A stretch of DNA of 64,000 nt, taken from contig NC_088297.1 of the NCBI RefSeq assembly GCF_032854445.1, positions 3,905,991 through 3,969,990 on the forward strand, given 5' to 3'. Shown piece by piece: positions 19,136 through 63,937 of this stretch. The stretch is from Liolophura sinensis. Taxonomy: Eukaryota > Mollusca > Polyplacophora > Chitonida > Chitonidae. The position numbers and the translations under genes are program-made. Numbering within the stretch: position 1 is the stretch's first letter; every line of letters begins with the position of its first letter. The notes beneath the pieces were generated by a model that was not told the origin of the DNA, did no database searches, and was given only the letters and a program-made list of their open reading frames with translations.

Positions 19136-19875
19136 TTTCTTCCTTCTCTTCGAAAAATAACACCAACACTGACGATAACGGTTTCACTTTTGACCCCAGA
19201 CACCGGACTTAACCATTTTGCCACAAGGGAAGTCAGTACTGAGTCCAGTGTAAAACATTAACCCCTCTGAAATGTGATAAACGGACTTCTGAACCAATTC
19301 TGCAGACTTCATTTCTTATTTGATTTGTGATTTAACGATGTACTCAAGCATTTTTCCACTTTTCGGTACCTTCTGAGTATCTCACATTATTGTAACAATT
19401 ATATTAGTCCCAGTTAGTAAAAATTATTAAAAAATACGTAAAAGGCCTATGTGGAATGGTTACAAATATTGTAGTATTTAAAAAAAAAAGGCAGTGCAAG
19501 GAATTCAAAGAACTGCTTACTTGTTGAAACGATATCATTACATTTATATGTATATTTGCATGAAATATTTTGAAGAAAGGCTCAAAACATGTCAGATAAA
19601 TAAAATGAAAGAGCAAAGTATTGTTAATGTTGTTCCCAAACATTAGCATTTTTCCCCACAATACAAAGTTCTACATGCGAGATATAATTTAGCAAAATTC
19701 CTTAGAAAGTATTAAAAGCTATAATTTTCCTGTCTCTTCATTGGCCCTGAACGTTAACAAAGTTTCGGTTTTTCTTTGAGTTGTAGTTTTTCTTACCCGT
19801 TTTTCCGCCTGACAATCTAGCAGAAATGTGGAATCGCCCAATTGACCCGCTGACCTATGCTATCACCAGTCAAAA
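19136..19875. promoter_or_regulatory. Shared head-to-head promoter region of the ABHD3-like gene and ADRM1
   Basis: The two start codons diverge and are separated by 740 bases, so both promoters must lie here unless undetected upstream noncoding exons exist. No convincing TATA box is placed consistently for either gene. A short SINE-tail fragment ('gatttaacgatgtactcaag', about 19314-19366) sits in the middle. An ATG at 19826, out of frame with the ADRM1 start, would form an overlapping upstream frame if transcription begins before it. Transcription start sites cannot be read from sequence alone. Confidence 0.55.
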
Positions 19876-22800
19876 ATGGCGTCGGGTGCACTGTTTGGAA
19901 ATGCTGGGACCCGTTCCCAAAGCAAGAATCTGGTGGAATTTCGAGCTGGAAAGATGTTCATGAAGGGCAACATGGTCAATCCAGACAAGAGGAAGGGGCA
20001 GATCTACATTTACCAGTCGGACGACTCCCTGATGCACTTTTGCTGGAAAGATCGTGGAAGTGGGACACTGGAAAATGTGGGTACAACAACAACAACATAA
20101 TGTGCAAGTCATGGTTACGATAACCTACCGTAACGCCCAGCTTCTGTCATGTAGACTTCCAAGCGGACAATTTCACTAAAAAATCCGGTTCGAACCCTAC
20201 CTTTTTTGCTATCCACCGATTCCTGAAATGTAATATGTCAAAGTCCGCATGGATAAAGCATCTTTCAACTGTAATACAGCTGTTGAAACTTTCAAATCGG
20301 ACAAGTTAAAAAAACAAAGATTCCAAACATGGCAGATGTTGATTTACCTTGCAGGAGTACCCACCTCCCTTCCTGTGGTTAGAGTACCCACCCACCTTTC
20401 TATAGTTAGAGCACCCACCTACCTTTCTATGGTTGGAGTACCCACCTACCTTCCTATGGTTAGAGTACCCACCTACCTTTCTATGGTTAGAGTACCCACC
20501 AACCTTTCTATGGTTAGAGTACCCACCTACCTTTCTATGGTTAGAGTACCAACCTACCTTTCCATGGTTAGAGTACCCACCTACCTTTCTATGGTTAGAG
20601 TACCCACCTACCTTTCTATGGTTGGAGTACCCACCTACCTTCCTATGGTTAGAGTACTCACCTACCTTTCTATGGTTAGAGTACCCACCCACCTTTCTAT
20701 GGTTAGAGTACCCACCTACCTTTCTGTGGTTAGAGTACCCACCAACCTTTCTATGGTTAGACTTCTCATCTCCTTTTTCATGGTTAGAGTACCATTCTAC
20801 CTACCCCCCCCCCCCCCCACACCCAACCACCCAAATTAACTAACTGACTAACTAACCAACCTTAACAGATATTTCAGTGTTGTGTTCAAATCTTTTTGCA
20901 GGATCTGATCATTTTTCCTGACGACATCGAATTCAAACGTGTGAGTCAGTGTACCACTGGCAGAGTGTACGTCCTCAAGTTCAAGTCTTCAACCAAGAAG
21001 TTCTTCTTTTGGATGCAGGTAATCTCCAGCTTTATAAAAGGATTCATGGAACATGAAATTTTTTTTTGTCTGTAGTGTATTTATTTATTTATTTATGTGA
21101 TTGGTGTTTTACGCCTTACTCAAGAAAATTTCACTTATACGACGGCGGCCAGCATTATGGTGGGTGGAAACCGGGCAGAGCCCCGGGGCAACCCACGACC
21201 ATCCGCAAGTTGATGGCAGACCTTCCCAATTACGGCCCGGAGAGGAAGCCAGCATGAGCTGGACTTGAACTCACAGCAACCACATCGGTGAGAAGCTCAG
21301 GGTCATTACGCTGCGCTAGCGCGCTAACCGACTGAACCACGGAGGCCCCGTCTGTACTGTATATTTAGTGATAACATTAGCTAGTACAAAGTAAGGTTTT
21401 GAGTCTTCATCTCAACATATTCAGGAATGTGACGAAGGAGAATATTCAAAGTAAAGGTGTTCAAACACTACTGGTAATGTATAATGTGTGCTGTATTTGA
21501 CTTCACATTTGCCCTTTAAAATGGATTTATAACAGGCAGATAAAAGGTTGTAAAATATTACTTTTGGTGTTGAACTTTGTGTTGAACCATTTCTCCAGCA
21601 GTATATCATCCTACATTCCAATTTTATCAGTCTACACAGAATATTGCCCTCAGAATTTACTTGAATAAACACCTGGCAAACAGTCTAAAAGGTTGAAGAA
21701 CATCAGTACATTATGCCCAGGGTCCAGTTTCATGACTCTCTCTTAATGTTATGAGCTGGCAACTACAATGTAAGGCCTACAGTATTGGTTGCCGTGGTAC
21801 TTAAGTGAATGTACCGTATTGAGTGCTTTGTGATATGGGGCCCTGGCTTTTATTTTTCACCACTCGGTTATATCTGGTCTGTTGTATTGTTGCAGGAGCC
21901 TAAGACTGACAAGGATGAAGAGTACTGTAAGAAGGTGAATGAGTACCTGAATAACCCCCCTGCGCCAGGCTCTAACCGTGGGGGTGGGGGAGGAAGCGGG
22001 CTGCCCTCAGAGCTGGCAGGTAAGATGGAGTCATCAGGACATGCTTCACCAAAGGTAGAGCTCGAAGTCAGAATCTGTGAATGAGCCATGTGCAGTGTTC
22101 CTGCACAATGCAACATGTCTAAAGTTATATGTGCAAAACTGCACATATAACCGTTTTCAGGAATGATTTTCATTACACATAGCTAGCTCTTCTTACTAAC
22201 AAACAATAAAGGGTTTTGTTCACCATTTGCACTGCTCAGAAATTTAAAATAATTCCATGATAAAACGAATACAGGAAGGAACTTTCAATTTGTTAGGAAC
22301 CTAAGCATTGAGATAAGAGGACAGATGTATGCATGCAGATAGATGTAATGTAAGACCTATTTTTAGAATGTATGAGGTTTATAAGCTCGAAAGGGCCTCC
22401 TTGGCTGAGGTGGTTAGAGTGACGCAGTGACTCATTTCACAAGAAATAATTGTTCACCGCGCTGCCTGCAGGACTGCATGTCTGTTTATTACTCACACAA
22501 CATTACACTACAACAAACGCCTCATTCAGTGCTGTCGTGTTGTTGTCACTGTATTGTAGCATATTTCACCTAAAGTTTGGAATGTAAAAATGCACTTTCA
22601 GAAGCACAAAAAGGCCTTAAAATGATATTTTTGATGCCAATGCTTAAGTCAAAGTCCAGCTCATGCTGGATTTCTCTTCAATCGTACATGATAAGGTCTG
22701 GCAGCAACCTGCAGATGGTCGTGGGTTTTCCCCAGGCTCTGCTCGGTTTCCTCCCACCCTAATGTTTGTTGTCGTCGTATAAGTGAAATATTTTTGAGTA

Positions 22801-25800
22801 CGGCGTAAAACACCAATCAAATAGATAATTTTTTGCTAAGAAATGAATCGAACATTACAAAAATTGACCCTACAAGGTGGGTCAGTCAGAATCAGGCAAA
22901 TTGTTTGGCTTGAAAAATGTCAAACTTTATTTGAAGTAAGGTTCAGAGGTTAATACAGTGTATATGTCTGTTTTTTACGATGTCTATTCCAGGAGACACG
23001 GACCTGCAAAGCATGCTGGGAAATATGAGCCAGCAACAGTTGATGCAACTTTTAGGTACGTACTATGACAACTTTATGACAGATTGCTTCAAGTGAATTC
23101 AGTGACTGGAAAATATACCCATTGAGCCGAAATTGAGCTTGACAAGGCAAAGAACATTTAAATTGTCTGAGCTATAGTCACCTTATCAAGAGTTCGTGTA
23201 CATGGAAGTACTGAGTGTAAAATGTAAGGTATTTATTAAAAATGTCAAGTAATGCTTTTAAGACCACACCATTTTTGTTGTCCTACAAGTCTTTTTTTCC
23301 TTTATTCGATGTTGGAAGAGGGTGTAAAAATGAAACTTGAATGCTTGAATAAAACTGCCGTACATGCCGTACGGCTAGGCATTGCTTGGACTTGTCTCTC
23401 ACTCACCCCTGTCAATCAGAAACAATGCTCTATCTCTTTAAACACCAATCAAATGGATGCAATGAGTAAGTGTAACTGATATGTCATGTACAGGAGGAAT
23501 GGGCATGAGTGGACTTACTGGACTGTCCAGCCTGATGGGAGGACGCCCAGCCAGTGCACAGTCCACTAGCTCAGAACCGTAAGTTTGCACTTGTTCTTGA
23601 TGTCTTGTTCATTTTTGGGGACCACAGTTAGTAGAGCGTCTGCTTCGAGAGCGGTAGATCCAGGGTCAATCCTAGGTCGAGTCACACCTAAGACCTTAAA
23701 AGAGGAAGTTGTAACTTCCTCCCTTGGCATTCAGCATGAAGAGGATAGTGCAACGACTGGTTGACCCGTATCAGTATAATGGCTCGGGCAGGGAGGCTTA
23801 CTTGCCTTCGGTAAGTCGTCTCAGTGAAGCAGCACTAAATAAAAGAGCGGTGGAAATCCGTCCTGCAACAAGGAGGTACATTACATGTACGTGCACCCTA
23901 ATTACTCCTTCGTCGTCATATGACTAAAAAATTGTTAAGTACGATGTTAAACCCCAAGCGCTCACTCACTCACTCATTTTTGGGGATGCCCCATTGGGGA
24001 CCTGTCAGAGGCCCTGCAGCAGGACCTTGGTGCCATTTGATTGACGTCAAATGTTCCTTTACCAGCTCATGAGAATGGCGTTATATTAAAAACAGAATCA
24101 CATTATAATAGAAATTGATACATTGTAACATGGTAGAAATTGTGCCACTATCCATTTTTTTAATGTAGAAATGGCTAGAGATCCTGCTTCACAGTAGCGC
24201 TGCCTCACAGGATTGAAAAAATATGCTGCTGCCTCATCGTTTCATTCTTGCTTCCGACCCTAGCTGGTGAATTATTACTCGGGCCATGTAAGAGAATAAG
24301 GGTCTTGTAAGCTTGACCCCATGTTGCCATTGGGCAGGAATAGGTACCCCCATGAAGATATTTTGTCATGCAACTTACACCTTTATATGCCTACTTCATG
24401 TGGTGTACTCAGCCAACAGGTCATCATTGCTTCTCATTTTCCTAGCTTCAAATCCAGGAGCGACATCTGGAAATCATTAAAGTCCAGGCAGTAAAATTTC
24501 AAGATGTATTTAAGGCCACACCAATTTGTTTTTGTTTATTGGCAAAATGGAGTTTTTTTTATTTTTTGTTCTGTGTCACAGAAGGTTGTAAAGATAAATG
24601 TAAAACTGTCCCAGCAAGTTTTCCTCTTAAAGACATGTTTACTTGATCAGAAAGTTTTGAAAAACACAAAACATTTAGGTCGGATTTTTAATTTGTTTTT
24701 TGTTTCAGTTTTTTTTTAGTTCTCAGTGTTGGCTTGCCCAAAATAATATTGGTGACTTTACCCAATCTTAATGCTTGGTGTGTACATACCAAACTTTTAA
24801 ACAATAAAAAAGTAAAAGCTAAATATCTGAAATCAGTACATATGTTGCCCCACCTGATACTGAGCTTTCTTCAGTCCTCTTAGAGCCCAGTCCTCCCCGG
24901 GAAGTCGTGCCACCACAGCAGGGGACAGCACTCCGACCTCACAGACCCGACCACTGACTGCTGCAGCCTTGCCCACCCAGGCAGGGGGGACAACTGCATC
25001 CACTCCTGCCCCAACGCCGTCCACGGGTGCGGGGAACAGTTCAGCTCGCCAGCAGATTCAGCTTAGTGACCTACAGAACATCCTCTCAAACATGACAGGT
25101 AAGCTGGCAGTGGAGGGCGTTCACATGCTACTCTAGTCTCAAAATAAACCAGGTGAAATTGTAAAAATGATATGAAGGATACTCCGTGAGACAAAGCTAA
25201 TACTGTGATTGAAATTGATTAGCGGACAAAACTGTAGTTACCGTAAAAAGGGATGTCATAATATTCCTTATGTGATGGCGGATCAGGCAGATATGACGTT
25301 GAGTTATACTGAAATGACGTCCTGAGTGTTTGAATGCAAGATGTCATTTATATATATATATATATATATATGTCACCTATCGGTAACATAAACTGTTCTT
25401 GAAGGAAGTCACACCAAGCAAAATTGGAAAGGACTGAAAATTTTTGTTTCCATAATGTGCCCTGAAGCTTTAATACAATGCATTCTTTTAACAAATTAGG
25501 TAAGCCATTGATACTATCTTGATCTGTATCAATTGGTCTTGCTTTGATCAGGTATATGTCTTGACACTGGAGTAGCTCTTCAAATGATACATGGTAAGGT
25601 ACTATAACATGGAGAGTGTGGCATTCAGGAGTATTAAGGTAAATGGGCCAAAATGAAAAATGATAGTTTGAGGCATATTTTATATTTCTTCATAACACCT
25701 CTGTTTTATGCATATTTTCCATTAAATGTCTAGAATATTCAGAAATCTGTACATACTGGGAACATGGGACCAGGGATAACTGTAGTTTAAAGTCATCTAT

Positions 25801-27722
25801 ACACCTTAAGAACGCTGCAAGGCATTTTTGTAAAATTACATATGCAGCCACATCCTAAATGACACATTAAGAAATAAAAGTAAACCATTTGATGTTTCCT
25901 TTAAGGCAAGTTTCAGGTCCTTAGAAAACCTTTCTGATTTGTGACTCATTTCTCATGACGTCTTTTCTCAAAATTGCTGATGCTACAAGATGTTATGTTC
26001 AAATCATAAGCCTTGAACATTGGATTTGGTCAAGGGGCCTTGGTGACAGTAGGCAATCTATAATCCTCATAACACTACAGAGTGTAGTTATGTTAGTTGT
26101 AGACCACAAATTTTCCATCAGTGTGATGTGCATATATGCACATGTCATATGAGGGAAAACTTTGTCACTGAATTGCTAAAGGTCAGTGGTTTAATGTGGG
26201 CACTCTGTTTTCATCTACACAAGAAATCTACCACCATCGTTTAAATGATGAATTCTGGAGCATGGATTATGGCATTTAACAGCACTCAATCAAGTAAATC
26301 CTATGATGTGTTTGGATTTTGATTTTTGCTGGAACATTTTTGATGATGCAGGGTTATGAGGCTATTTTGTTATTGCATACTTCAGTCTGTGGGGATTTTC
26401 AAACTCATGACAATTGCATCGATCATGAAATATGTCATCTGTCATCAAAATGTGTTAGGAAAATGGTGTTAAAGGAAAAGACCTCTAAAATCGAAGTAGA
26501 CATCACTAAATGGAGAGCACTTAAAACTATGCATAAATATACTATCATTTTATTTTTTTTAGGTTCTTTAGAAGAGAGTTAAAAATTCAGATGTTTGAAT
26601 TCTAAAGTGGACTTTAAGAACCATACCTAAACTCTGATGTCCAGGAAGATTTTCCAACTTTAATCACGTCCCTGAATGTTGGAATAACTCCTCTTACCCA
26701 TGACTAAAAGATTACTGAAATAGCGTTCTCAAAAATTCCTTTCTTCTGGTCAACATTAGGAGAAAAAGGTGATGAGATGCCAGAGTTCCTAGATAACGTC
26801 AACATGACTTATAAAGCCCACTACGGCATGGAAATATCTCAGTGCCTTTCAACACTCTTCCAAAAAATCTACAAAAATAAATGAAAGTATTTGTACGCAT
26901 AGTTTTTCATTTGTCTGTATGATAAACCTTTCTTCATATTTTAGCTTTCTTTTACTTTAAGACTCAACTGAATTTGAGTTCAGTTTGTCTTGAAGCATGC
27001 ATACTAAAACAAATTTGACTTGTTTCTCAATTTCAGTACCTGAAGCTCAGAATAAGGATGGTAAGACATTAACATTTTTTATAACGGTAAATCTTAGACC
27101 ATTTCACCGTGTACGGACTTCATGCATACACTTATTATGAGAATGACACTAAATACCATATTTCTTCTAAAATTTAGGACAGCTGGTCTGCTCATTTTAG
27201 CTAATATATATATGTAAATCTAGCACCGGCCCGGATAGCACGGCTGGTAGAGCGTCCGCTTCGGGACCGGTAGATCCAGGATCAATCCTTGATTGAGTCA
27301 CACCTAAGACTTTAAAAGAGGAAGTTGTAACTTCCTCGCTTGGCGTTCAGCATGAATGGGAAGTGCAACGACTGGATTCACCCGTATCAGTATAATGGCT
27401 CCGGCGGGGCGGCTTTCTTGCCTTCGGTAAGTCGTCTCAGTGAAGCAGCACTAAATAAAAGAGCGGTGGAAATCCGTCCTGCAACAAGGAGGCACATTAC
27501 ACGTACATGCACTCTAAGGATTCCTTCGTCGTCATATGACTGAAAAATTGTAGAGTACGACGTTAAACCCCAAGCACTCACTCACTCACTGTAAATCTAG
27601 CAACAGCATTGAGTTTCTTTTTTCTCACGTGGTTAGACCATCTAATGGACAATATACTAATATCTTGACTTTACCAAAAGGCTGGTAACTCAGAATGCTT
27701 CAAAATATTGAATAGGTTGAAG

Positions 27723-27755
<33 letters not shown>

Positions 27756-29851
27756 TTTGATTGGTGTTTTACGCCGTACTCAAGAATATTTTACTTATAC
27801 GACGGCGGCCAGCATTATGGCGGGTGGAAACCAGGCTGAGCCCGGGGGAAACCCACGACCATCCGCAGGTTGCTGGCAGACCTCCCCACGTAGGGAAGAA
27901 CTAGAAATATAATAGAGGGTTTCCAAACAGCCCTTTTGTTTTTTTCTTAGGCTGTTTTGTGTGAGCATGGTGCCCAGATTTCATTCTTTTTTTCATTTTT
28001 TTCTCTATTGGGTTAATTGCTGAAAAGAGGAAGTTCAAAGAGAACTTTTCACGTGTTTGCAAGGTGTTTATATAAGCATATTCTAAAAATGCTGTTCTAT
28101 GTAAAATGATAAAATTATAATTTTTGTGAAACCCTGAAATTTGCCATTACCACTAATGTGGTTTTGTCTCCAAAATCAAATTTAAAATGTTCATAAATTG
28201 AGCTGAATGTTGTTCAACAATAGGTTTAGGAATTAGGGTATTTTTCTAGGTGGTTAACCCATTGGGTGATTGCCAGAAGACCCTCTGTACAGAGCATATG
28301 TCCTGTTACAGCTATCAACCTAGCCCAGGCTCTGAACCCCGAATCCCTGATCCCTATCCTGGCCAACAGTGAAGTCCAGGAGAGACTCCTCCCCTACCTA
28401 CCAGAGGGGGAGGCCCTGCCCAAAACAGAGGAGGAGCTGAGGAACACTGTCCAATCCCCACAGTTCCAACAGGTGAGTGACAGCTGTCCGTTGACAGGCA
28501 TGAAATTTTTTTTTTTTTTTTTTTTTCTTGCAAAAATTTTTGGAGTTTAAAAGCTGGCATGAAGTTCATTCCTTCACTATATGACCTGTGCAGAATTCTT
28601 GCTCTTTTGAGCAGTTGTTAAAGAAACGAACATGGCAATTTCAGCTAGGAGCACACACCACTTGAGATTTGTTTGCATGTTTTCAGATTGTATAGGAAAA
28701 AATATATATATATAGGAGATCTATATCTTTAATGTGTTGTCTTAATTTCCTAATGATACAAAAAAGATGATTTAAGTGTGAATGTAATGAAAATATTTAG
28801 TGTTTTACCAAGAAAATATGCCCTATGGGTGTCTTAAAGCTGTTATTTTGTGTTTTTTTTACAATTCTGTGTTTGTTTGGCAGGCTTTGGGGTCATTCAG
28901 TGCAGCCCTGCAGTCAGGTCAGCTCGGCCCTCTCATGCCACAGTTTGGTTTGGGAGAGGATGTGGCGAACGCTGCGGCACAAGGAGGTGAGTTAATCAGG
29001 CTGTCTACTCAGTAAGTTTGGTGGGGAAGAGCGAAGCCCTTCCGCTTCATCTCAAACCTAGGAATCCATGTTCAAAGTGTATGGTTTTACTGAATTTACT
29101 GTACCTACATGTACATGGTGGCAGTTGATTTTATGTGTGATTTGTGGAGAAAACCAGACTGCCCACAGGATAAAAACAGCTGACCTTTGGCAAGTTTACT
29201 GATGAACTGTCCCATGTGTGATGCAGAGATATGGACCGCTTATTTGTCACCAAGGTCGGCCAAACGGAGAGCAGACAAATACACAAATTCCGTATTCAGT
29301 TGATTTAATTAGTGTTTTATGCCGCATTCAAAAATATTTCACTCCAAAATGAAATTATTTATTTATTTGATTGGTGTTTTACGCCGTACTCAAGAATATT
29401 TCACTTATACGACGGCGGCCAGTATTATGGTGGGAGGAAACCGGGCAGAGCCCGGGGGAAACCCACGACCATCTGCAGGTTGCTGACAGACCTTCTCACT
29501 TACGGCCGGAGAGGAGGCCAGCATGAGCTGGACTTGAACTCAGAGCAACCACATTGATAAGAGGCTCCTGTGTCATTACGCTGCGCTAGCGCGCTAACCG
29601 ACTGAGCCACGGAGGCCCCTAAAATGAAATTAAAACTGTGCTTAAGTTGCACTGAAAGATGCATTTTCATATGTGAAAAGGGTGAGGAATTAGGTTGACT
29701 GAAAATTTCTTGAGTCTGGTATGAAACACTAATCAAATAAATGACTGTTTCAGATCTTGAAGCTTTTGTACGGGCCATGCAGCCTCAAAAGGCAGAAGGG
29801 TCTGAGGAGAAGCCAGCTGAGAAACCCGACGATAAAAAAGAGGAAAAGTAA
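19876..29851 (+). CDS. ADRM1: Proteasomal ubiquitin receptor ADRM1 (Rpn13), 10 coding exons
   Basis: Exons: 19876-20076, 20902-21018, 21896-22019, 22993-23055, 23494-23578, 24875-25098, 27037-27060, 28312-28472, 28884-28986, 29754-29851. GT-AG introns with consistent phases give 1,200 nt, 399 residues (human 407). Residues about 16-126 are the Pru domain, which docks on Rpn2 and binds ubiquitin. The human ubiquitin contacts Leu56, Phe76, Asp79 and Phe98 correspond to Leu52, Phe72, Asp75 and Phe94 here, all kept. A Gly/Ser/Thr-rich linker holds the short conserved helix [13 protein letters not shown]. Residues from about 280 form the helical domain that recruits the deubiquitinase UCH37/UCHL5 ([16 protein letters not shown] is nearly identical to human). 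It ends in a Lys/Glu-rich tail. The exon 1 donor is taken at AAT|GTGGGT because only this keeps the frame and the human-like length. Protein acts in the 26S proteasome cap. Poly(A) signal AATAAA is at 29978-29983. Confidence 0.97.
20353..20795 (+). repeat. 27-base minisatellite in ADRM1 intron 1, about 16 units
   Basis: Unit: 'ggttagagtaccc' followed by 'acctacctttctat'. Units are nearly identical. The 27-base period leaves frames open on both strands (136-196 codons on plus, 128 on minus). These are by-products of the repeat inside an intron. A C-run and '(aactnacc)n' follow at 20797-20860. Confidence 0.9.
21077..21349 (-). mobile_element. SINE family A, full length
   Basis: Complete from '(ttta)n..gtgattggtg' to the head end 'gactgaaccacggaggcccc'. 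Located in ADRM1 intron 2 just after exon 2, antisense to the gene. Confidence 0.9.
21716..21846. mobile_element. Palindromic MITE-like element D2
   Basis: Left end 'cccagggtccagtttcatga' pairs with the right end 'ctttgtgatatggggccctgg'. Inner arms 'ctctcttaatgtta' and 'gtacttaagtgaatgtac' also match inversely. About 130 bases, noncoding, ending 49 bases before ADRM1 exon 3. Same family as 9774-10257 and 44341-44472. Confidence 0.75.
22393..22450 (+). mobile_element. Diverged tRNA-like SINE head
   Basis: 'gggcctccttggctgaggtggttagag' matches the family A head, but the rest does not follow. Truncated insertion in ADRM1 intron 3. Confidence 0.5.
22650..22826 (+). mobile_element. SINE family A, head-truncated
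   Basis: 'aaagtccagctcatgctgga' to 'cggcgtaaaacaccaatc'. ADRM1 intron 3, sense orientation, 167 bases before exon 4. Confidence 0.8.
23617..23977 (+). mobile_element. SINE family B, head slightly truncated
   Basis: 'cacagttagtagagcgtctg', 'gtagatccagggtcaatcc', 'gaggaagttgtaacttcctc' (itself an inverted repeat), then 'cgtcatatgactaaaaaattg' and a (cact)n tail. ADRM1 intron 5. Confidence 0.85.
23990..24140 (+). repeat. Dispersed repeat F, copy 1
   Basis: 'ggggacctgtcagaggcc', 'gcagcaggacc', 'ttgacgtcaaatgttcc' and 'ccagctcatga' recur in the same order at 41816-41985. Noncoding; family unknown. Confidence 0.6.
25230..25590 (+). repeat. Dispersed repeat E, copy 2
   Basis: Partner of 9400-9772, same orientation, interrupted by a (TA)n run at 25351-25372. 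ADRM1 intron 6. Confidence 0.6.
27228..27590 (+). mobile_element. SINE family B, full length, with 12-base target-site duplication
   Basis: Flanked by 'gtaaatctagca' at 27216-27227 and 27591-27602. Head 'cggcccggatagcacggctgg' with 'tagagcgtccgcttcgggac', B-box region, inverted 'gaggaagttgtaacttcctc', the 3' domain and (cact)n. Intact ends and a perfect duplication show a comparatively recent insertion. ADRM1 intron 7. Confidence 0.93.
27725..27893 (-). mobile_element. SINE family A, head-truncated
   Basis: Long (ttta)n run followed by 'gattggtgttttacgccg' and the body to 'cagacctccccacg'. ADRM1 intron 7. Confidence 0.85.
28055..28245 (+). repeat. Dispersed repeat G, copy 2
   Basis: Matches 10740-10930 over several short blocks and ends about 70 bases before ADRM1 exon 8. 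Confidence 0.5.
29299..29345 (-). mobile_element. SINE family A tail fragment
   Basis: 'aattagtgttttatgccgcattc' and 'aaaaatatttcactcc'. Older and more diverged than the full copy that begins 12 bases further on. Confidence 0.65.
29358..29620 (-). mobile_element. SINE family A, full length, with 12-base target-site duplication
   Basis: Flanked by 'aaaatgaaatta' at 29346-29357 and 29621-29632. Complete from the (ttta)n tail to the head 'gactgagccacggaggcccc'. In ADRM1 intron 9, ending about 130 bases before the last exon; young by its intact flanks. Confidence 0.93.
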
Positions 29852-37920: not shown

Positions 37921-38587
37921 CATCCACATACACACAACAGCGATTGTGCTGTTGTGACGAATTAATGTGCATGGCTGACTTGAGCGATAACACGTTTGAC
38001 GCACAGATGCGTGTATGCACGCCATATCGGAAGGAGACAAGTGGACTTAACGACAGCATCCATTTAGAAATATCATTGATTATGTGATTATCTGCTAGCA
38101 AAGACTAACCTGTAAACTGTTTTCTCGAGGTACCGTATAGACAGACAATGAAGGGGTCGTTTGCACCAAAGCGTGTAGACATGTAAAGTGTTTGGTCTAA
38201 GCAGCTACAGTATGCAAAAACAGCCAAGGAGTTGTCTGCACCGAAGCGGAACAGAACTTTTCACATTACCCGGATGAGATTACAATGCCTTTGCACTTAT
38301 TCTCTGAGTCTTTTGTTACTTTAGGAACATTCAAAAGAGTTTCTGCTGGCGTCTTTTCATTCTTGATCAGGTTTTTTTAAGGATGATCATGTCGCTCGTG
38401 TGATGTAGAAATTTGGTCAATATTTTCTGCTGGTGCGAGTTGCTGTGGACGTTTATCTGCCTTGGACATAAAGTCATTAGTAGGAATGACTTTAAAGACT
38501 GGAACAATGCTCAGTTCTTTGGCTAGTAAAAGTTCTGCCTAAGCACCTAAGAGGCATGGGGAAGCCCTCCAAAGAAATAGCCAAAAC
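37921..38587. other. No gene seen
   Basis: No recognised element or coding exon. Two overlapping minus-strand frames near 37852-38101 are short and featureless. Confidence 0.45.
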
Positions 38588-38855
38588 GTGCCTTTCGCTC
38601 AGTCGGTTAGCGCGCTAGCGCAGCGTAATGACCCAGAAGCCTCTCACCAATGCGGTCGCTGTGAGTTCAAGACCAGCTCATGCTGCCTCCCTCTCCGACC
38701 GTACGTGGGAAGGTCTGCCAGCAACCTGCGGATGGTCGTGGGTTTCCCCCGGGCTCTGCCTGGTTTCCACCCACCATAATGCTGGCCGCCGTCGTATAAG
38801 TGAAATATTCTTGAGTACGGCGTAAAACACCAATCAAAAAAAAAAAAAAAAAAAC
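38588..38855 (+). mobile_element. SINE family A, full length with A-tail
   Basis: Complete tRNA-like head ('ctcagtcggttagcgcgctag', B-box 'gtgagttcaagacc'), body, tail 'cggcgtaaaacaccaatc' and about 19 A residues. The poly(A) instead of (aaat)n is unusual among the copies here. Confidence 0.92.
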
Positions 38856-42309: not shown

Positions 42310-43170
42310 CTGTTGCACATTTAACGCTTATGTGTTCTGTGTTTTGACGTTCTGATTGGCTTCCTGAAATAACAACCGTCTGTGAGTTTTCCGTCTGTTG
42401 CTGCACATTTAACGCTGTTCCGTGTTTTGACGTTCTGATTGGCTTCCTGAAATAACAACCGTCTGTGAGTTTTCCGTCTGTTGCTGCACATTTAACGCTG
42501 TTCCGTGTTTTGACGTTCTGATTGGCTTCCTGAAATAACAACCGTCTGTGAGTTTTACGTCTGTTGCTGCACATTTAACGCTTATGTGTTCCGTGTTTTG
42601 ACGTTCTGATTGGCTTCCTGAAATAACAAACGTCTGTGAGTTTCCGTCTGTTGGTGCACATTTAACACTTATGTGTTCCGTGTTTTGACGTTCTGATTGG
42701 CTTCCTGAAATAACAACTGTCTGTGAGTTTCCGTCTGTTGGTGCACATTTAACGCTTATGTGTTCTGTGTTTTGACGTTCTGATTGGCTTCCTGAAATAA
42801 CAACCGTCTGTGAGTTTTCCGTCTGTTGGTGCACATTTAACGCTTATGTGTTCTGTGTTTTGACGTTCTGATTGCTTTCCTGAAATAACAACCGTCTGTG
42901 AGTTTTCCGTCTGTTGTTGCACATTTAACGCTTATGTGTTCTGTGTTTTGACGTTCTGATTGCTTTCCTGAAATAACAACCGTCTGTGAGTTTTCCGTTT
43001 GTTGGTGAGCATTTAACGCTTATGTGTTCTGTGTTTTGACGTTTTGATTGCTTTCCTGAAATAACAACTGTCTGTGAGTTTTCCGTTTGTTGGTGAGCAT
43101 TTAACGCTTATGTGTTCTGTGTTTTGACGTTTTGATTGGCTTCCTGAGATAATCACCATCTGTAAGTTTT
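42310..43170 (-). repeat. 83-88 base minisatellite, ten units
   Basis: Unit on the plus strand: 'gcacatttaacgct', optional 'tatgt', 'gttttgacgttctgattgg', 'cttcctgaaataacaaccg', 'tctgtgagttttccgtctg'. Units without 'tatgt' are 83 bases, those with it 88. The first units are nearly identical; those after about 43010 diverge. Minus-strand frames remain open through many units but encode only repeat peptide. Confidence 0.92.
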
Positions 43171-44340
43171 TCGTTTGCTGAATTTCCGTTCTGCCTCCTT
43201 GACACAACACAAGCTTCTACAGGTTCCACCCTTTGACGTTAAATCTGGCTCCCCTCACACAAATAATCACCGGAAAGTGTCCCGTATGTTCATGATCCGT
43301 TTGACTTCAGTGTTCTGAGCGTTGCCGTTCCGTCCTGTCAACCAGAAAAAAAACAAATGTTTACAGGTATTTCTTCTGTTGAAGTCCCCTTTCGCTTCCT
43401 TGACAAAACAAACGCCTAAAAGGAATCCATTTTTTTTCATCCCTTTTGGCTTCCTTAAATCCGTTTGGCTCTCATTACACAGCAGTCAACCACCTGTAAG
43501 TTGTCTGTGTTCTGTATTTCCGTTCGCCTTCCTGACATAACAATCGTTTGCAAGTTTTTCGTCTGTCGACGTTCCGGTTTGCATCGACGAAAAAAAAAAT
43601 CCATTCCACCAACACGTCTTAGCAAATTTTAAAACGTGTTATTTATGTTGGTTTTCCGTTCGGCTCCCTGACACAACAAATTATTGCATTCTTCTATCTG
43701 TTGGCATTCCGTTCAGTTTGCCTGTCCAACACAACTGTCTAAACGTGTTTTGTTAGCTGACGTTTTGTTCGTCCTCTTAACACAACAACTACGTGTTTTG
43801 TCTGTTGACGTATCGTTTGCCCTATTCGACTCAACAACTGTTTTTGCGTATTTTGTCTGCTGACGTACCGTTCGCTCTCTTCGAAATAACCACTTTCCAT
43901 ATTTGTTTTATCTGATGACATTTTCTTAAACCTCTCCAACACAACACCTGTCCATACATGTTTTATCAGTTCACCTTTTGTTCGACTCCTAAGACACAAC
44001 ATCTGTCTGTTGACGTTTTGTTCTGTTTCTGTTTTTGACACAACAACTACCTAAAGGTATTCCATTTGTTGGCGATGCGTTCAACAATCCCGACAACAAC
44101 AACTGAATATAGAATCATCATTTTAGCGTTTCGTTGACACAGGAAACGTTCCGTGTGACCTCTCCGACACAACAACGGGCAGCAGAATCAGTGTTTTGGC
44201 TTTTTGATGACACGCGGGGCGCCAAGGGGCCTGTCATGTGTTGACCTAAACGATACAACAAATGACTATGCATGCGTGTCCAGTACGCTGGCATTTTTGT
44301 GACACCGATAACGTATATACGTGTCTGCAGTGTTGACGTT
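43171..44340 (-). repeat. Diverged extension of the 83-88 base array
   Basis: About 15 degenerate units recognisable by 'ttgacgttccgttcg', a pyrimidine-rich stretch, 'acacaacaac' and 'gtctgttgacg'. The spacing is shorter and irregular (about 60-85 bases). Identity falls with distance from the homogeneous array, as expected for older edge units. The frame at 43739-44041 is built from these. Confidence 0.7.
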
Positions 44341-44472
44341 CTGGGCCCGGTTTCACGAAGCACTCTTACCGTTACGTTCACTTAACTACCACGGCAGCCA
44401 GTGCTGTAGGCATTACGTCGTCATGGTAGTTGCGAGTTCGTAATGTTGAGAGATTTTGCGAAACTGGGCCCT
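44341..44472. mobile_element. Palindromic MITE-like element D3, overlapping the receptor stop codon
   Basis: Ends 'gggcccggtttcacgaagc' and, inverted, GGGCCCAGTTTCGC. Inner arms also pair: 'ctcttaccgttacg' with CTCTCAACATTACG, and 'aactaccacg' with AACTACCATG. About 130 bases without coding capacity of its own. Its right half supplies the last 19 codons and the stop codon of the receptor gene. Confidence 0.8.
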
Positions 44473-45483
44473 GTTCTGTAATTCTGACACTGTCTGTATT
44501 TGCTCCGTTTGTTGATGTTCCGTTCTGCGCTTTTTACACAACAACCGTCTATACGTATTCCGTATGTTGACGTTCATGACGCCGTAGATAATCCAGTTTA
44601 TCCAGCTGTTGGTGTAGGCGAGGTAGAGACAGGCAATGTGAATAGCAGGGGCCCAGTTATTGTGCACATCTCCCAGGGTGGTCACAGTGTAAGGTAACAT
44701 CAAGAGGACGAGCAGAATGAAAACGGTAAGGAGGGTATAAGCTGCAGTGATATCGTGACGACTGTATTTACTAACGATGTATTCGGCGGAGGGATTCGGG
44801 AATACCCTCTTCAGCTTCTGTCGCACTGTGAACATTTTGTAGAAAATCATGGAGTAGAAGATCAAGACAAGTACTGCAGGGACAAACACAGTGACCAGCA
44901 TTTGCATTAGAATGTACATCAGGCCGCCAGATCGCAGATAACTGCAGAGGTGCAGGATGACGTCGTATCCCATATCGCCGAACCCGAGAAACGGGGCGAT
45001 GTTCATCGGCACCGGGATCAGGAATAAAATCGCGACGCAGAGACATGTGTTCCTTCTAGACAACCATAAATTGTACTTCGGCGGATGACAGATTTTCACG
45101 AAACGGTTGAAGGCGATAAATGCTAAGCTCCAGAGTGACAATCCATAGCAGTAGCAAACCGTAAAAGCGTTCACTTTACAGAATGTTTCGCCGACTGGAT
45201 ATCGGCCGTAAATGTAGTCGAACAAGGAAAAGGGCAGCACGTAACCTTGGATCGTAATATCCGCCAGAGCAAGCGTTACCAAAAACACATTGCAGCGCGT
45301 CCGAAGTTTCTTTTCGGTGAAGACGGCGACGATGAGAAGACCATTGCCGAAAATGCCGAGCAGAATGTAGCATAGAGAAACAACGATGAGTAAGACGGTG
45401 ACAAATCCGGGAAAGCTGTGGTACGATCTGTGAAGCACATCTGAGTCCAAGCTACCAGCTGTTTGCGACTCATTCTCATTCAT
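44413..45483 (-). CDS. Rhodopsin-class (class A) GPCR, melatonin-receptor-like, single exon
   Basis: 356 residues with seven hydrophobic segments (about 26-55, 63-90, 102-130, 146-168, 185-215, 248-272, 280-303). A glycosylation sequon NES is at residues 4-6. Family marks: GNGLL with Asn48 (helix 1), LALAD with Asp75 (helix 2), Cys102 and Cys180 as the probable extracellular disulphide, KKRR after helix 8. The helix 3 motif is NRF (126-128) rather than DRY and is followed by ICHPPKY, reminiscent of the melatonin receptors' NRY and ICHSLKY. Helix 6 lacks the CWxP tryptophan (LMLPY). Helix 7 has NWIIY instead of NPxxY. Ligand unknown; it may belong to a lophotrochozoan receptor expansion. No intron; ATG has A at -3. 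The tail after residue about 304 is repeat-related and the final 19 residues come from element D3. No nearby gene indicates its role. Confidence 0.9.
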   Translation of the reverse strand: MNENESQTAGSLDSDVLHRSYHSFPGFVTVLLIVVSLCYILLGIFGNGLLIVAVFTEKKLRTRCNVFLVTLALADITIQGYVLPFSLFDYIYGRYPVGETFCKVNAFTVCYCYGLSLWSLAFIAFNRFVKICHPPKYNLWLSRRNTCLCVAILFLIPVPMNIAPFLGFGDMGYDVILHLCSYLRSGGLMYILMQMLVTVFVPAVLVLIFYSMIFYKMFTVRQKLKRVFPNPSAEYIVSKYSRHDITAAYTLLTVFILLVLLMLPYTVTTLGDVHNNWAPAIHIACLYLAYTNSWINWIIYGVMNVNIRNTYRRLLCKKRRTEHQQTEQIQTVSELQNRAQFRKISQHYELATTMTT

Positions 45484-47908: not shown

Positions 47909-49080
47909 ACCATGATGCACGTTCCAAATACATAACCGCAAGGCCAATTCCCAGTACGACGTATAACACAAACCACCTAAGAACTAAGAAAGTACACAAA
48001 GTATTAAACTAGGACAGAATATTGCAAAGAGAAGAAGTCAATTGTTTCAATGATGTTGGAAAGAGAGAGTGAAATCAGTATTCAAATCGTGTACCATGCT
48101 AGAATATAAGCTGTGGATACCAAAACATGTATCTAAGTCGCGCTTTGATTGCAAATATTATCGAATTTTCGTACTTTTGTTTATCCAACATATACAGCAT
48201 GCATGCGATGATTGTATTTACCCAAAGCAACGTAGCAAACAATCAAAAATTAATCAGTCTGAACAAACAGAGTTCATTATAATGAACTCTGATTAATCAG
48301 ATAGATTATGGTATATAGTACAGTATACTATATTAATTAGTGCCGTGGTAAAACTGGGGGGTGGGGGGGGGGCTTCTACACTTCAAGGCCATGTTTTCCT
48401 CAAACAATGAATTATTCGCACCATTTATAGCCGTAAAAGTGACGGTGTATTTATTCACCATAAGTATAATTAGAAAACATGTTAACAGAAAATAAAGCAT
48501 GGCGGGAATAAAGTCACAAAGGGTTTGATCTAATTACAAGTATGTAAGATGACGCTGGTTGTAGGTGAATTATAAGTAAATAATAGCAGAGTAAACGATT
48601 TACATATTTAAGAAAAACGCAAAAATGCCAAAAGAAATGCTGTGGTGCAGGGCTATAAGACCTGAATTTTTGAAAATAAGTCAGAATTGTTTCATCAAGT
48701 GATCTTTTGGACTTAAAAAGAGAAAGTGAGTCAATAGATTTGAGAGAAATCGGTAGCCTGTTCCATTCCCGGTGGGGTCACATGTTACGGCAGTTCAGGG
48801 GTATTTTATAGGGGTGATATATATATTTATGAGCGATTAATAAAGAAAACTGAAGGATAGAGAATTTTACTTGTAAAATATTCAGAGATCCGAAGAGAGG
48901 GTCTTTGTCCTCGGGTCGATTAGATAGGGTTAGGCATAAATGAATACTATTTGAAATAGTTGATACTTAAATATACATTAACTGCATTAATTTCGCTTTA
49001 ACCAGACAAATTCGCTGACACACGTACATAACTCGCTCAGTCCAAGCCGTGTTCTCTTTGGTACTATTTTGTAATACGTC
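47909..49080. other. No gene seen
   Basis: AT-rich DNA with a G-run near 48356-48372 and a perfect 24-base palindrome at 48268-48291 (CAGAGTTCATT-AT and its complement). No coding exon recognised. Confidence 0.5.
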
Positions 49081-49083
49081 AGT

Positions 49084-49086
<3 letters not shown>

Positions 49087-49117
<31 letters not shown>

Positions 49118-49118
49118 C
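49087..49118 (+). repeat. Poly(T) run preceding a SINE
   Basis: About 32 T residues immediately before the head of the full-length family A copy. It could be the A-tail of an element on the minus strand. Confidence 0.8.
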
Positions 49119-49123
49119 TTGTG

Positions 49124-49383
49124 GGGGCCTCCGTGGCTCAGTCGGTTTGCGCGCTAGCGCAGCGTAATGACCCAGGAGTCTCTCACCAATGCGGTCGCTG
49201 TGAGTTCAAGTCCAGCTCATGCTGGCTTCCTCTCCGGCCGTACGTGGCAACCTTCGGATGGTCGTGGGTTTCCCCCCGGCTCTGCCCGGTTTCCTCCCAC
49301 CATAATGCTGGCCGCCGTCGTATAAGTGAAATATTCTTGTGTACGGCGTAAAACACCGATCAAATAAATAAATAATAAATAAG
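49124..49383 (+). mobile_element. SINE family A, full-length reference copy
   Basis: Best model of the family. tRNA-like head: A-box TGGCTCAGTCGGTTTGCGCG and B-box GAGTTCAAGTCC about 50 bases on, consistent with RNA polymerase III transcription. A GC-rich body follows ('ccggccgtacgtgg', 'ctctgcccggtttcc', 'cataatgctggccgccg'), then the 3' domain 'cgtataagtgaaatattc' and 'tacggcgtaaaacacc', and an (aaat)n tail. No coding capacity; mobilisation must come from a LINE. Confidence 0.93.
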
Positions 49384-53053: not shown

Positions 53054-53620
53054 ATGAAAATCTTTATTATCGGCAGCAGTTACGTTCATAGGCTGGAGAA
53101 TAGTATCCTTCGAAATTCGATCCCAAACTCTAGAATCGACTTTGGAACAGGCCAGGACATTCGGTTTTTTGGCATTGGGGGAGCTAGAGTTGGGACACTT
53201 AGATGCTCTGGAAGATTGGAAAGTCTCCTTTAGGAGACAAAACCTGACCTAATTATCCTCCACATTGGGGGAAACGATGCGGACTCTCACAAATCAGCAG
53301 CAGCAATTTGCGCTGATATTTTAGACTATGTTGGTGCACTTAAATCGAAATTCCAAATTCCAAGGATCTACATCAGCCAGCTTCTTTACCGTCAGGTAAC
53401 TCGGCGAATTTCGGTCCACATTTATAATACAAAAATCCATGAAATTAACAAGAAGCTGACAAACAACCAATTGGCCACCTTCTGGAGACACCGGGGACTG
53501 ATCCGACCACAAAAGCAAATTCTAACCAACGACGGAGTGCACCTAAACACTCTAGGCCAGGAACTGTTCTACCGGCCTATGAAACGTGCTGTCTGCGCCG
53601 CCATGGGAGGCCACAAATAA
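53054..53620 (+). pseudogene. SGNH/GDSL-type hydrolase frame with one in-frame stop, probably retroelement-borne
   Basis: 188 codons from ATG to TAA with a single TAG at codon 60 (53231-53233). SGNH marks are present in order: IIGSSYVHRL near the N-terminus (nucleophile Ser in GSS), GIGGARVG (block II Gly), LHIGGNDAD (block III GxND) and NDGVHLN (block V DxxH). It starts five bases after a 38-base poly(A) run and no host-like intron is visible. SGNH hydrolases are known as accessory domains in CR1-like LINE ORF1 proteins and in Ngaro/DIRS-type tyrosine-recombinase retroelements; which applies is not visible. Except for the stop, the frame is well kept, so inactivation is recent or the stop is a sequence error. 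Function in such elements is not established; esterase activity is the family expectation. Confidence 0.65.
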
Positions 53621-55329: not shown

Positions 55330-56112
55330 TTAGGATCTGTAGCAGCGAATGAGAAAATTGGCAACAGCCTGAAAAACTTTATTGTAATTTCTGACCGGTT
55401 TTAAAACCGTGTCGTCTGACGGGTTCCCAACACCAGCACGAGTTAATTCTGCGTAAAATACGCGCCTGGCGTCAATATGACGTCTAAAACGAAAAAGAAC
55501 ATGCGCAACAGTATCTTCTACAAAACATTCCTCACAATGACCCGTGTCATGGAGATTGAATTTATGCAAATAGCTGTTTGTTTTAATGTGACCAGACAAG
55601 AGTCTAAATACGAGTATTTCGCCACAGCGACAGTCGAGAGAGAGATTGTAGCTTACAGAGATTTGAGGGTTGTGAGAATAAAAGAATCTTCCTGTAACAG
55701 AGTTATCCCATTCATTTTGCCATACTGGTATAAATTTCGCTTTGACATAACTAATAGCTTCTTGTACAGACAACGGGATGGTCTGGGATATATTGGGTAG
55801 ATCAAGGGCCTTTTTGGCCATTTTGTCGGTCAACTCATTTCCGTCAACACCAATGTGGGCCGGCACCCATTCAAACGCCACAGATACACCTTGGTAGCCC
55901 AATATAGTACAGATATACAGTATTTCATACACACGCGCTGCCAACTTTTTCCAAATAAAGTTACCAAGTGCCCGTAAAGAACTTAAGGAGTCTGTGAAAA
56001 TAACAGCCCTAATCGGTCTTTACTCGAGTAGATAGTTAAGAGCACACAAGATTGCGGTATTGAACTTGAGGCACTGAGCCTGGCGTTGTATAGTTCCAAA
56101 TAGTTGTCTCTG
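55330..56112 (-). mobile_element. Non-LTR retrotransposon (LINE) fragment: RNase H domain and C-terminus
   Basis: Read on the minus strand, AVIFTDSLSSLRAL carries an RNase H catalytic Asp, and WVPAHIGVDGNELTDKMAKKA carries the His and the last Asp of the domain. The 205-odd residues from about 55944 to the stop at 55330 are uninterrupted. They end with a Cys/His region (HCEEC ... TVAHVLF) typical of the C-terminus of I/Nimb/Tad-type elements. Upstream, FNTAILCALNYLLE continues the domain in frame after one stop (TAA near 56024-56029). Earlier sequence is broken by stops, and reverse transcriptase is absent: a 5'-truncated, partly decayed copy. Such enzymes, where intact, could mobilise SINEs; a link to the SINEs here is not shown. 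Confidence 0.85.
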
Positions 56113-60169: not shown

Positions 60170-63100
60170 CCCACCAGGAGTGGACGTGTGACGTCAAGCC
60201 CATGCATTGATTATGACAAGGAGTGGACGTGTGTTTAGACGTCAAGCCCACTGACCGTGACCAGGAGTGGACGTGTGTTTAGACATCAAGCCTATTGACC
60301 GTGACTAGGAGTGGACGTGTGATTAGACGTCAAGCCCACTGACAGTGACAAGGAGTGGACGTGTGTCCAGACGTCAAGCCCATTGACCGTAACCAGGAGT
60401 GGACGTGGGTCCAGACGTCAAGCCCACTGTCCGTGACCAGGAGTGGACGTGTGTCCAGACGTCAATCCCACTGACTGTGACCAGGAGTGGACTCGTGTTC
60501 AGACGTCAAGCCCATTGACCGTGACCAGGAGTGGACGTGTGTCCAGACGTCAAGACCATTGACCGTAACCTGGAGTGGACGTGTGTCCAGACGTCAAGCC
60601 CATTGACCGTAACCAAAAGTGGAAGTGTGTCCAGACGTCAAGCCCATTGGCCGTAACCAGGAGTGGACGTGTGTCCAGACGTCAAGCCCATTGACCGTGA
60701 CCAGGAGTGGACGTGTGTCCAGACGTCAAGCCCACTGACCGTGACCAGGAGTGGACGTGTGTCCAGACGTCAAGCCCATTGACCGTGACCAGGAGTGGAC
60801 GTGTGTTCAGACGTCAAGCCCATTGACCGTGACGAGGAGTGGACGTGTGATTAGACGTCAAGCCCATTGACCGTAACCAGGAGTGGACGTGTGTTCAGAC
60901 GTCAAGCCCATTGACCGTGACCAGGAGTGGACGTGGGTCTAGACGTCAAGCCCATTGACCGTGACCAGGAGTGGACGTGTGTTCAGACGTCAAGCCCATT
61001 GACCGTAACCAGGAGTGGACGTGTGTTCAGACGTCAAGCCCATTGACCGTGACCAGGAGTGGACGTGTGTCTAGACGTCAAGCCCATTGACCGTAACCAG
61101 GAGTGGACGTGTGTCTAGACGTCAAGCACATTGACTGTGACCAGGAGTGGACGTGTGTCCAGACGTCAAGCCCATTGGCCGTGACCAGGAGTGGACGTGT
61201 GTCCAGACGTCAAGCCCATTGACCGTGACCAGGAGTGGACGTGTGTCCAGACGTCAAGCCCATTGACAGTGACCAGGAGTGGACGTGTGATTAGACGTCA
61301 AGCCCATTGACCGTGACGAGGAGTGGACGTGTGTCCAGACGTCAAGACCATTGACCGTGACCAAGAGTGGACGTGTGTCTAGACGTCAAGCCCACTGTCC
61401 GTGACCAGGAGTGGACGTGTGTTCAGACGTCAAGACCATTGACCGTGACCAAGAGTGGACGTTTATGTAGACGTCAAGCCCATTGACCGTGACCAGGAGT
61501 GGACGTGTGATTAGTCGTCAAGACCACTGACCGTGACCAAGAGTGGACGTGTGTCTAGACGTCAAGCCCACTGTCCGTGACCAGGAGTGGACGTGTGTCT
61601 AGACGTCAAGCCCATTGACCGTGACCAGGAGTGGACGTGTGATTAGACGTCAAGACCACTGACCGTGACCAGGAGTGGACGTGTGTCTAGACGTCAAGCC
61701 CACTGTCCGTGACCAGGAGTGGACGTGGGTCTAGACGTCAAGCCCATTGACCGTGACCAGGAGTGGACGTGTGATTAGACGTCAAGCCCATTGACCGTGA
61801 CCAGGAGTGGACGTGTGATTAGTCGTCAAGACCACTGACCGTGACCAAGAGTGGACGTGTGTCTAGACGTCAAGCCCACTGTCCGTGACCAGGAGTGGAC
61901 GTGTGTCTAGACGTCAAGCCCATTGACCGTGACCAGGAGTGGACGTGTGATTAGACGTCAAGACCACTGACCGTGACCAGGAGTGGACGTGTGTCTAGAC
62001 GTCAAGCCCACTGTCCGTGACCAGGAGTGGACGTGGGTCTAGACGTCAAGCCCATTGACCGTGACCAGGAGTGGACGTGTGATTAGACGTCAAGACCACT
62101 GACCGTGACCAGGAGTGGACGTGTGTCTAGACGTCAAGCCCATTGACTGTGACGAGGAGTGGACGTGTGATTAGACGTCAAGACCATTGACCGTGACCAA
62201 GAGTGGACGTGTGTCTAGACGTCAAGCCCATTGACCGTGACCAGGAGTGGACGTGTGCCTAGACGTCAAGACCATTGACCGTGACCAAGAGTGGACGTGT
62301 GTCTAGACGCCAAGCCCATTGACCGTAATCAGGAGTGGACGTGTGTCTAGACGTCAAGCCCATTGACCGTGACCAGGAGTGGACGTGTGTTTAGACATCA
62401 AGCCCATTGACAGTGACCAGGAGTGGACGTGTGTCCAGACGTCAAGCCCATTGACCGTGACCAGGAGTGGACGTGTGTCTAGACGTCGAGCCCATTGACC
62501 GTGACCAGGAGTGGACATGTGTCCAGACGTCGAGCCCATTGACCGTGACCAGGAGTGGACGTGTGTCCAGACGTCAAGCCCATTGACCGTGACCAGGAGT
62601 GGACGTGTGTCTAGACGTCAAGCCCATTGACCGTGACCAAGAGTGGACGTGTGTCTAGACGTCAAGCCCACTGTCCGTGACCAGGAGTGGACGTGGGTCT
62701 AGACGTCAAGCCCATTGACCGTGACCAGGAGTGGACGTGTGATTAGACGTCAAGACCACTGACCGTGACCAGGAGTGGACGTGTGTCTAGACGTCAAGCC
62801 CATTGACTGTGACGAGGAGTGGACGTGTGATTAGACGTCAAGACCATTGACCGTGACCAAGAGTGGACGTGTGTCTAGACGTCAAGCCCATTGACCGTGA
62901 CCAAGAGTGGACGTGTGTCTCGACGTCAAGCCCATTGACCGTGACCAAGAGTGGACGTGTGTCTAGACGCCAAGCCCATTGACCGTAACCAGGAGTGGAC
63001 GTGTGTCTAGACGTCAAGCCCATTGACCGTGACCAGGAGTGGACGTGTGTTTAGACATCAAGCCCATTGACCGTAACCAGGAGTGGACGTGTGTCTAGAC

Positions 63101-63937
63101 ATCAAGCCCATTGACAGTGACCAGGAGTGGACGTGTGTCTAGACGTCAAGCCCATTGACCGTGACCAGGAGTGGACGTGTGTCTAGACGTCGAGCCCATT
63201 GACCGTGACCAGGAGTGGACATGTGTCCAGACGTCGAGCCCATTGACCGTGACCAGGAGTGGACGTGTGTCCAGACGTCAAGCCCATTGACCGTGACCAG
63301 GAGTGGACGTGTGTCTAGACGTCAAGACCATTGACCGTGACCAAGAGTGGACGTGTGTCTAGACGTCAAGCCCACTGTCCGTGACCAGGAGTGGACGTGT
63401 GTCTAGACGTCAAGCCCATTGACCGTGACCAGGAGTGGACGTGTGATTAGACGTCAAGACCACTGACCGTGACCAGGAGTGGACGTGTGTCTAGACGTCA
63501 AGCCCACTGTCCGTGACCAGGAGTGGACGTGGGTCTAGACGTCAAGCCCATTGACCGTGACCAGGAGTGGACGTGTGATTAGACGTCAAGACCACTGACC
63601 GTGACCAGGAGTGGACGTGTGTCTAGACGTCAAGCCCATTGACTGTGACGAGGAGTGGACGTGTGATTAGACGTCAAGACCATTGACCGTGACCAAGAGT
63701 GGACGTGTGTCTAGACGTCAAGCCCATTGACCGTGACCAAGAGTGGACGTGTGTCTCGACGTCAAGCCCATTGACCGTGACCAAGAGTGGACGTGTGTCT
63801 AGACGTCAAGCCCATTGGCCGTGACCAGGAGTGGACGTGTGTTCAGACGTCAACACCATTGACCGTGACAAAGAGTGGACGTGTTTCTAGATGTCAAGCC
63901 CATTGACCGTGACCAGGAGTGGACGTGTGTCTAGAAC
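60170..63937 (+). repeat. 44-base satellite array, about 86 units
   Basis: Unit 'gaccaggagtggacgtgtgt' then 'ccagacgtcaagcccattga' and 'ccgt'. The first step is 43 bases (60178 to 60221), later steps 44. Variants ('gattagacgtcaagaccactg', 'gggtctagac', 'gacgagg') recur in fixed orders, giving higher-order repeats: 'gggt' variants are spaced 308, 660 and 836 bases, i.e. 7, 15 and 19 units. The period is not a multiple of three, so no long frame exists. Each unit holds GACGTC, a half-CRE-like sequence, without evidence of function. The array ends at about 63937, before the window edge. Confidence 0.95.

Follow-up and report, generated by a model that had tools for sequence, protein, structure and literature searches.

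A receptor tail in the chiton Liolophura sinensis that may have been rebuilt from an out-of-frame helix-8 repeat and a palindromic element

The coding end of a class A G-protein-coupled receptor (GPCR) gene in the chiton Liolophura sinensis is closely bound up with repeated DNA. In the 64-kb stretch that we analysed (64,000 nucleotides, hereafter the window), profile comparison shows the receptor's helix-8 codons to be a member of a tandem array downstream of the gene, and alignments support derivation of the last residues, 338-356, and the stop codon from a dispersed repeat. On balance we favour, as the best explanation of the locus as a whole, an array that would derive from the gene, a second unit read out of frame, a stop supplied by a mobile element, and a tail that can be replaced.

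The receptor and its stop codon lie as follows:

44413-45483, minus strand: class A GPCR, single-exon open reading frame (ORF) of 356 residues (7tm_1 and PDB matches)
44413-44415, minus strand: TAA stop codon, inside the palindromic element (ORF coordinates)

The receptor matches the Pfam 7tm_1 profile over its full length (E 9.4e-34, residues 46-300, profile positions 1-260 of 260), and its seven-transmembrane domain is thus intact. The top solved structures are the melatonin receptors MT2 (E 5.2e-31) and MT1 (8.5e-31), a likeness that is a ranking of PDB structures (best 60 of 633) in a set without a tree and without invertebrate receptors. The MT1 and MT2 alignments are continuous through helix 8 and end at residues 316-318, and residues 319-356, queried alone against the PDB at E up to 1, matched 0 chains. 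An AlphaFold2 model from the single sequence was too poor for use (mean pLDDT 54.3, pTM 0.30), and a search for relatives of the receptor in viral_contigs found none. On the minus strand, N337 is encoded by 44475-44473, R338 by 44472-44470 and the TAA by 44415-44413, so that the C-terminus reads ...SELQN-RAQFRKISQHYELATTMTT-stop. A previous sequence-only reading had placed the ORF, the element and the stop at these same codons, and all three are where it put them.

The element that closes the frame has two relatives in the window:

44343-44473, minus strand: palindromic MITE-like element, 131 bp, coding residues 338-356 and the stop (arms, fold and copy B)
21718-21843, plus strand: copy B of the element, dispersed, some 23 kb away from the gene (alignment)
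9774-10257, plus strand: copy A, a longer relative that resembles the element at its termini and contains seven 59-bp repeats (Tandem Repeats Finder and alignment)

The palindrome that the sequence-only reading described is real. Its arms are identical at 35 of 48 positions, and an equally good palindrome appeared in 0 of 1000 mononucleotide shuffles; its fold has z-scores of -2.90 as DNA and -4.94 as RNA, and in neither case did any of 200 dinucleotide shuffles fold as well. The terminal pattern is found at 44343-44359 (plus strand, no mismatches) and 44455-44471 (minus strand, one mismatch). With three mismatches allowed, the pattern turns up 9 times in the window, where chance would give 5.08, and so the best matches alone are meaningful. 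Aligned end to end, the element and copy B are identical at 97 of 125 positions (0 of 500 mononucleotide shuffles as good), and the part that encodes the receptor, 44413-44472, agrees with copy B at 41 of 54. This end-to-end match supports the earlier claim, at the level of DNA, that a dispersed repeat gave rise to residues 338-356 and the stop. The further claim of two more family members held in full for copy B, although the palindrome of copy B is not significant (137 of 1000 shuffles equal it), and for copy A only in one 47-column segment at the end, which is all that it has in common with the element (0 of 500 shuffles). Similarity to copy B also puts the limits of the element at 44343-44473, against 44341-44472 as first proposed.

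The same six bases, GTTCTG, stand on both sides of the element as a candidate target duplication. Such a flank repeat arises by chance in 1.7% of cases (3454 of 200000 random position pairs in the surrounding array), so that a target-site duplication is likely, though weakly marked and short of proof. A search of viral_contigs with the element-end pattern gave 0 matches. Copy A is of some interest in its own right, with seven 59-bp tandem repeats set between ends that resemble those of the element, and oyster Helentron-type elements carrying tandem arrays (PMC7492417) are a possible comparison.

Downstream of the gene, at 42.3-44.1 kb, lies a degenerate tandem array that the sequence-only reading did not notice. 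It has the following parts, together with a unit inside the gene:

about 44520-44571, minus strand: helix-8 codons (about residues 305-321), also an array unit (hidden Markov model, HMM)
43335-44071, minus strand: proximal array, old, 10 degenerate units with a mean pairwise identity of 61% (unit HMM)
42314-43174, minus strand: distal array, young, 88-bp higher-order unit, 9.9 copies, 94% matches (Tandem Repeats Finder)

An HMM made from 8 downstream units of the proximal part, with the receptor excluded, scored the helix-8 codons at 24.2 bits (E 2.1e-6), its top non-training match in the 64-kb window; among 5000 dinucleotide shuffles of 44473-44583, none exceeded 11.2 bits. The seeds had been chosen by a short anchor motif after the resemblance was noticed, a choice for which the shuffles make no correction. 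At E up to 10, the HMM made 28 matches in the window, and a single one, at E 7.8, fell outside the array. A refined HMM, which includes the helix-8 unit, gave the helix-8 codons 38.2 bits. Direct alignment to the array is consistent with this: unit 1, as a 61-base query, scored 40, against a maximum of 23 for the other coding sequence taken in 86 slices of 50 bases. The similarity to the array starts near 44586-44580 in the coding sequence.

Tandem Repeats Finder returned no row over the proximal array, 43335-44071. In the distal array, 10 helix-8-like units at 42351-43181 have a mean pairwise identity of 93%. Distant units, read in the receptor frame, still encode helix-8-like peptides such as NRRKTHRRLLF. 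We had considered an in-frame 54-bp array repeating helix 8, and dropped this idea because neighbouring unit starts are spaced by 55, 53, 55, 55, 48 and 57 bases and because 8 of 22 aligned units carry a stop in the helix-8 frame. A separate minisatellite at 60214-63935 (44-bp unit, 84.6 copies, 91% matches) gave no match to the unit HMM.

Two further stretches, one on each side of the element, may belong to the same array:

44473-44519, minus strand: probable second array unit with indels, frame-shifted, about residues 322-337 (EHQQTEQIQTVSELQN) (array alignment)
44312-44342, minus strand: far flank of the element, possible third unit, weak (alignment to the helix-8 unit)

The DNA of 44473-44519 scored 32 against the array, compared with 25 for the best match elsewhere in the window; 0 of 500 mononucleotide shuffles (maximum 29) and 6 of 1000 dinucleotide shuffles (maximum 36) were as good. 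The unit HMM gave this stretch 6.8 bits (E 0.46). At the protein level, the tail peptide HQQTEQIQTV...SELQN matches HQQTENSQTV...SERQN in an array frame, with 0 of 2000 shuffles as good. Residues 322-337 are thus probably a frame-shifted second array unit. The far flank scored 28 against the helix-8 unit, and 2 of 1000 dinucleotide shuffles were as good against the receptor units and 8 of 1000 against the array and receptor units together. Because the best match elsewhere in the window scored 27 and the unit HMM found no match at 44312-44342 at E up to 1, it is no more than probable that the far flank is a further array unit, and that the element sits between two of them.

Helix 8 is an array unit in its own right, and both residues 322-337 and the far flank bear a weak resemblance to one; by the time of the element's insertion, therefore, the receptor frame had probably already departed from its ancestral tail. 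The sequence-only reading had proposed that the element replaced an older C-terminus; this is probably right in part, in that the present end does derive from the element, while the tail that it cut short was probably already in array sequence. Joining the flanks on the assumption that GTTCTG was duplicated gives a 360-residue protein in which the stretch that follows, NVNTADTYIR, returns to the helix-8 frame, and four joins without the duplication give 361, 368, 410 or 411 residues. Whatever its length and frame, a tail that predated the insertion would have continued into this far flank.

It is also conceivable, though unlikely, that the element alone interrupted the gene and replaced its C-terminus, and that residues 319-337 are ancestral tail and not array. 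The element origin of residues 338-356 and of the stop is real under this account as well. Furthermore, the likeness of residues 317-337 to the kappa-opioid tail is closer than expected by chance (equalled by 54 of 5000 shuffles), and some PDB alignments, to opioid and histamine H2 receptors, pass residue 318 and reach 340-347, so that part of the tail might be ancestral. However, these same residues 317-337 fit the array frame better (score 45, against 31 for kappa-opioid; 0 of 2000 shuffles), and the helix 8 that precedes them is itself an array unit. The failure of residues 319-356 to match any PDB chain also speaks against an ancestral tail.

Another unlikely account would have the last coding exon end at or near helix 8, with the true tail in a downstream exon, the array and the element intronic or intergenic, and residues 338-356 never translated. 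The minus strand from 44500 to 42001 contains no AATAAA or ATTAAA, though variants such as CATAAA, GATAAA and AATACA occur, and a downstream exon or a 3' end farther away could thus be accommodated; inspection also finds a weak GT donor-like site within the LLC codons. Against this, the frame is open over 356 codons without a splice, and the melatonin-receptor alignment reaches residue 316. Less probable again is that this is a degenerating or unexpressed gene copy with a biologically meaningless tail, given an unbroken ORF and a seven-transmembrane domain that spans the whole Pfam model undamaged.

The favoured explanation takes the array to be derived from the gene, and, as in a gene-derived minisatellite, the array unit has its homologue in a coding stretch of the neighbouring gene. 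Aligned to helix 8 of MT1 and MT2, residues 304-316 obtain scores of 34 and 33, which none of 7804 open mononucleotide shuffles (from 20000 made; maxima 22 and 21, respectively) reaches. Against kappa-opioid helix 8 the resemblance is weak, with a score of 9, which 32 of the 7804 shuffles reach, and the best array 13-mer scores 13. The match to MT1 and MT2 suggests that helix 8 was most likely inherited with the receptor and that the array grew out of the gene. The units alone cannot root this history, since the receptor unit is no nearer the array consensus than others are (0.69 to a consensus built without it, with 3 of the other 21 units lower). That an older minisatellite beside the gene donated helix 8 to the receptor, as membership of the helix-8 codons in an array left unrooted by its own units would allow, is very improbable, because the resemblance of the helix-8 residues to melatonin receptors greatly exceeds chance (0 of 7804 shuffles) and elsewhere in the window no unit falls below E 7.8.

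The history that we propose would begin with a tandem duplication of the end of the receptor gene, from helix 8 on, in units of about 55 bp. Since 55 cannot be divided by three, the following unit would be read in another frame, and a copy of the helix-8 codons would thereby have become an unrelated hydrophilic tail. The array would then have decayed, while its far end would have re-expanded as an 88-bp unit. A MITE-like element would then have inserted, supplying a new stop. The receptor would have retained its seven-transmembrane domain and helix 8 with C316, which we take to be a candidate palmitoylation site, and the 35-odd residues beyond may form a loosely constrained, replaceable tail. 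Most likely, the working part of the receptor ends with helix 8 and its C316, and residues past about 320 are a tolerated, changing tail.

In class A receptors the C-terminal tail evolves rapidly and governs desensitisation and trafficking. A minisatellite seeded by helix 8, a new tail read out of frame, and a transposon landing in the array and rewriting the tail once more might together amount to a regulatory tail renewed by the turnover of repeats and not by point mutation, a broader proposal that we put forward only tentatively and consider rather doubtful. The locus would nevertheless present a readable route to remaking a tail, through an out-of-frame duplication of helix 8 followed by a transposon stop. 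Should the transcript be confirmed, relatives that possess or lack the array and the element would make a natural series for testing how much of a tail the receptor requires. We also considered the element as the bringer of an arrestin motif, here defined as TxTT. The element-derived tail has one such motif, but shuffled elements yield one as well in 117 of the 1263 cases where the frame is usable, and a gain of arrestin binding therefore cannot be claimed.

The window also contains several features at a distance from the receptor. Exons of the proteasome ubiquitin receptor Rpn13/ADRM1 occupy 19846-28550 on the plus strand (Pru, E 1.9e-14; RPN13_C, E 3.9e-14), and within this interval a 27-bp minisatellite of 16.3 copies, at 20355-20793 on the plus strand, is open in more than one frame. 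A 26-residue peptide, or close variants of it, is common to ORFs at 38543-38779 (plus), 49019-49351 (plus), 29500-29784 (minus) and others, as a dispersed SINE-like repeat. An RNase H-like fragment at 55330-56019 on the minus strand (E 0.00013, under the Pfam cut-off) and a GDSL-lipase-like fragment at 53234-53620 on the plus strand (E 2.2e-07, just under the cut-off of its best model) are perhaps retroelement remnants.

Several known systems resemble parts of this locus. MT1 and MT2 are the best structural match to the receptor, helix 8 included, whereas the receptor extends further, over residues 319-356. The short element shares with animal non-autonomous palindromic MITEs a size of about 131 bp, terminal inverted repeats (inverted ends GGGCCC-GTTTC) and dispersed copies in the window, B whole and A at one end. 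MITEs have a target-site duplication of fixed length, and by inspection none is clear at copies A and B. Squid rhodopsin has a repeat tail, and both this tail and the zinc-finger array of Prdm9 are like the present case in having tandem repeats within or ending a coding sequence. The Prdm9 array is a coding minisatellite (PMC3890296); unlike these two, the array here has a period of about 55 bp and is out of frame, with most of its units beyond the stop. In the open-access literature, the titles and abstract openings among the matches listed described no transposon-derived GPCR tails, and no gene-derived minisatellites or repeat tails of such a kind. A transposon that supplies an exon or a stop of a host gene is represented by an exonised mouse L1 (PMC2176070). 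As with that L1, a mobile element provides the end of a host's transcript or protein; in contrast to it, the element here lies directly in frame, where splicing is unneeded, after codons that are probably derived from the array.
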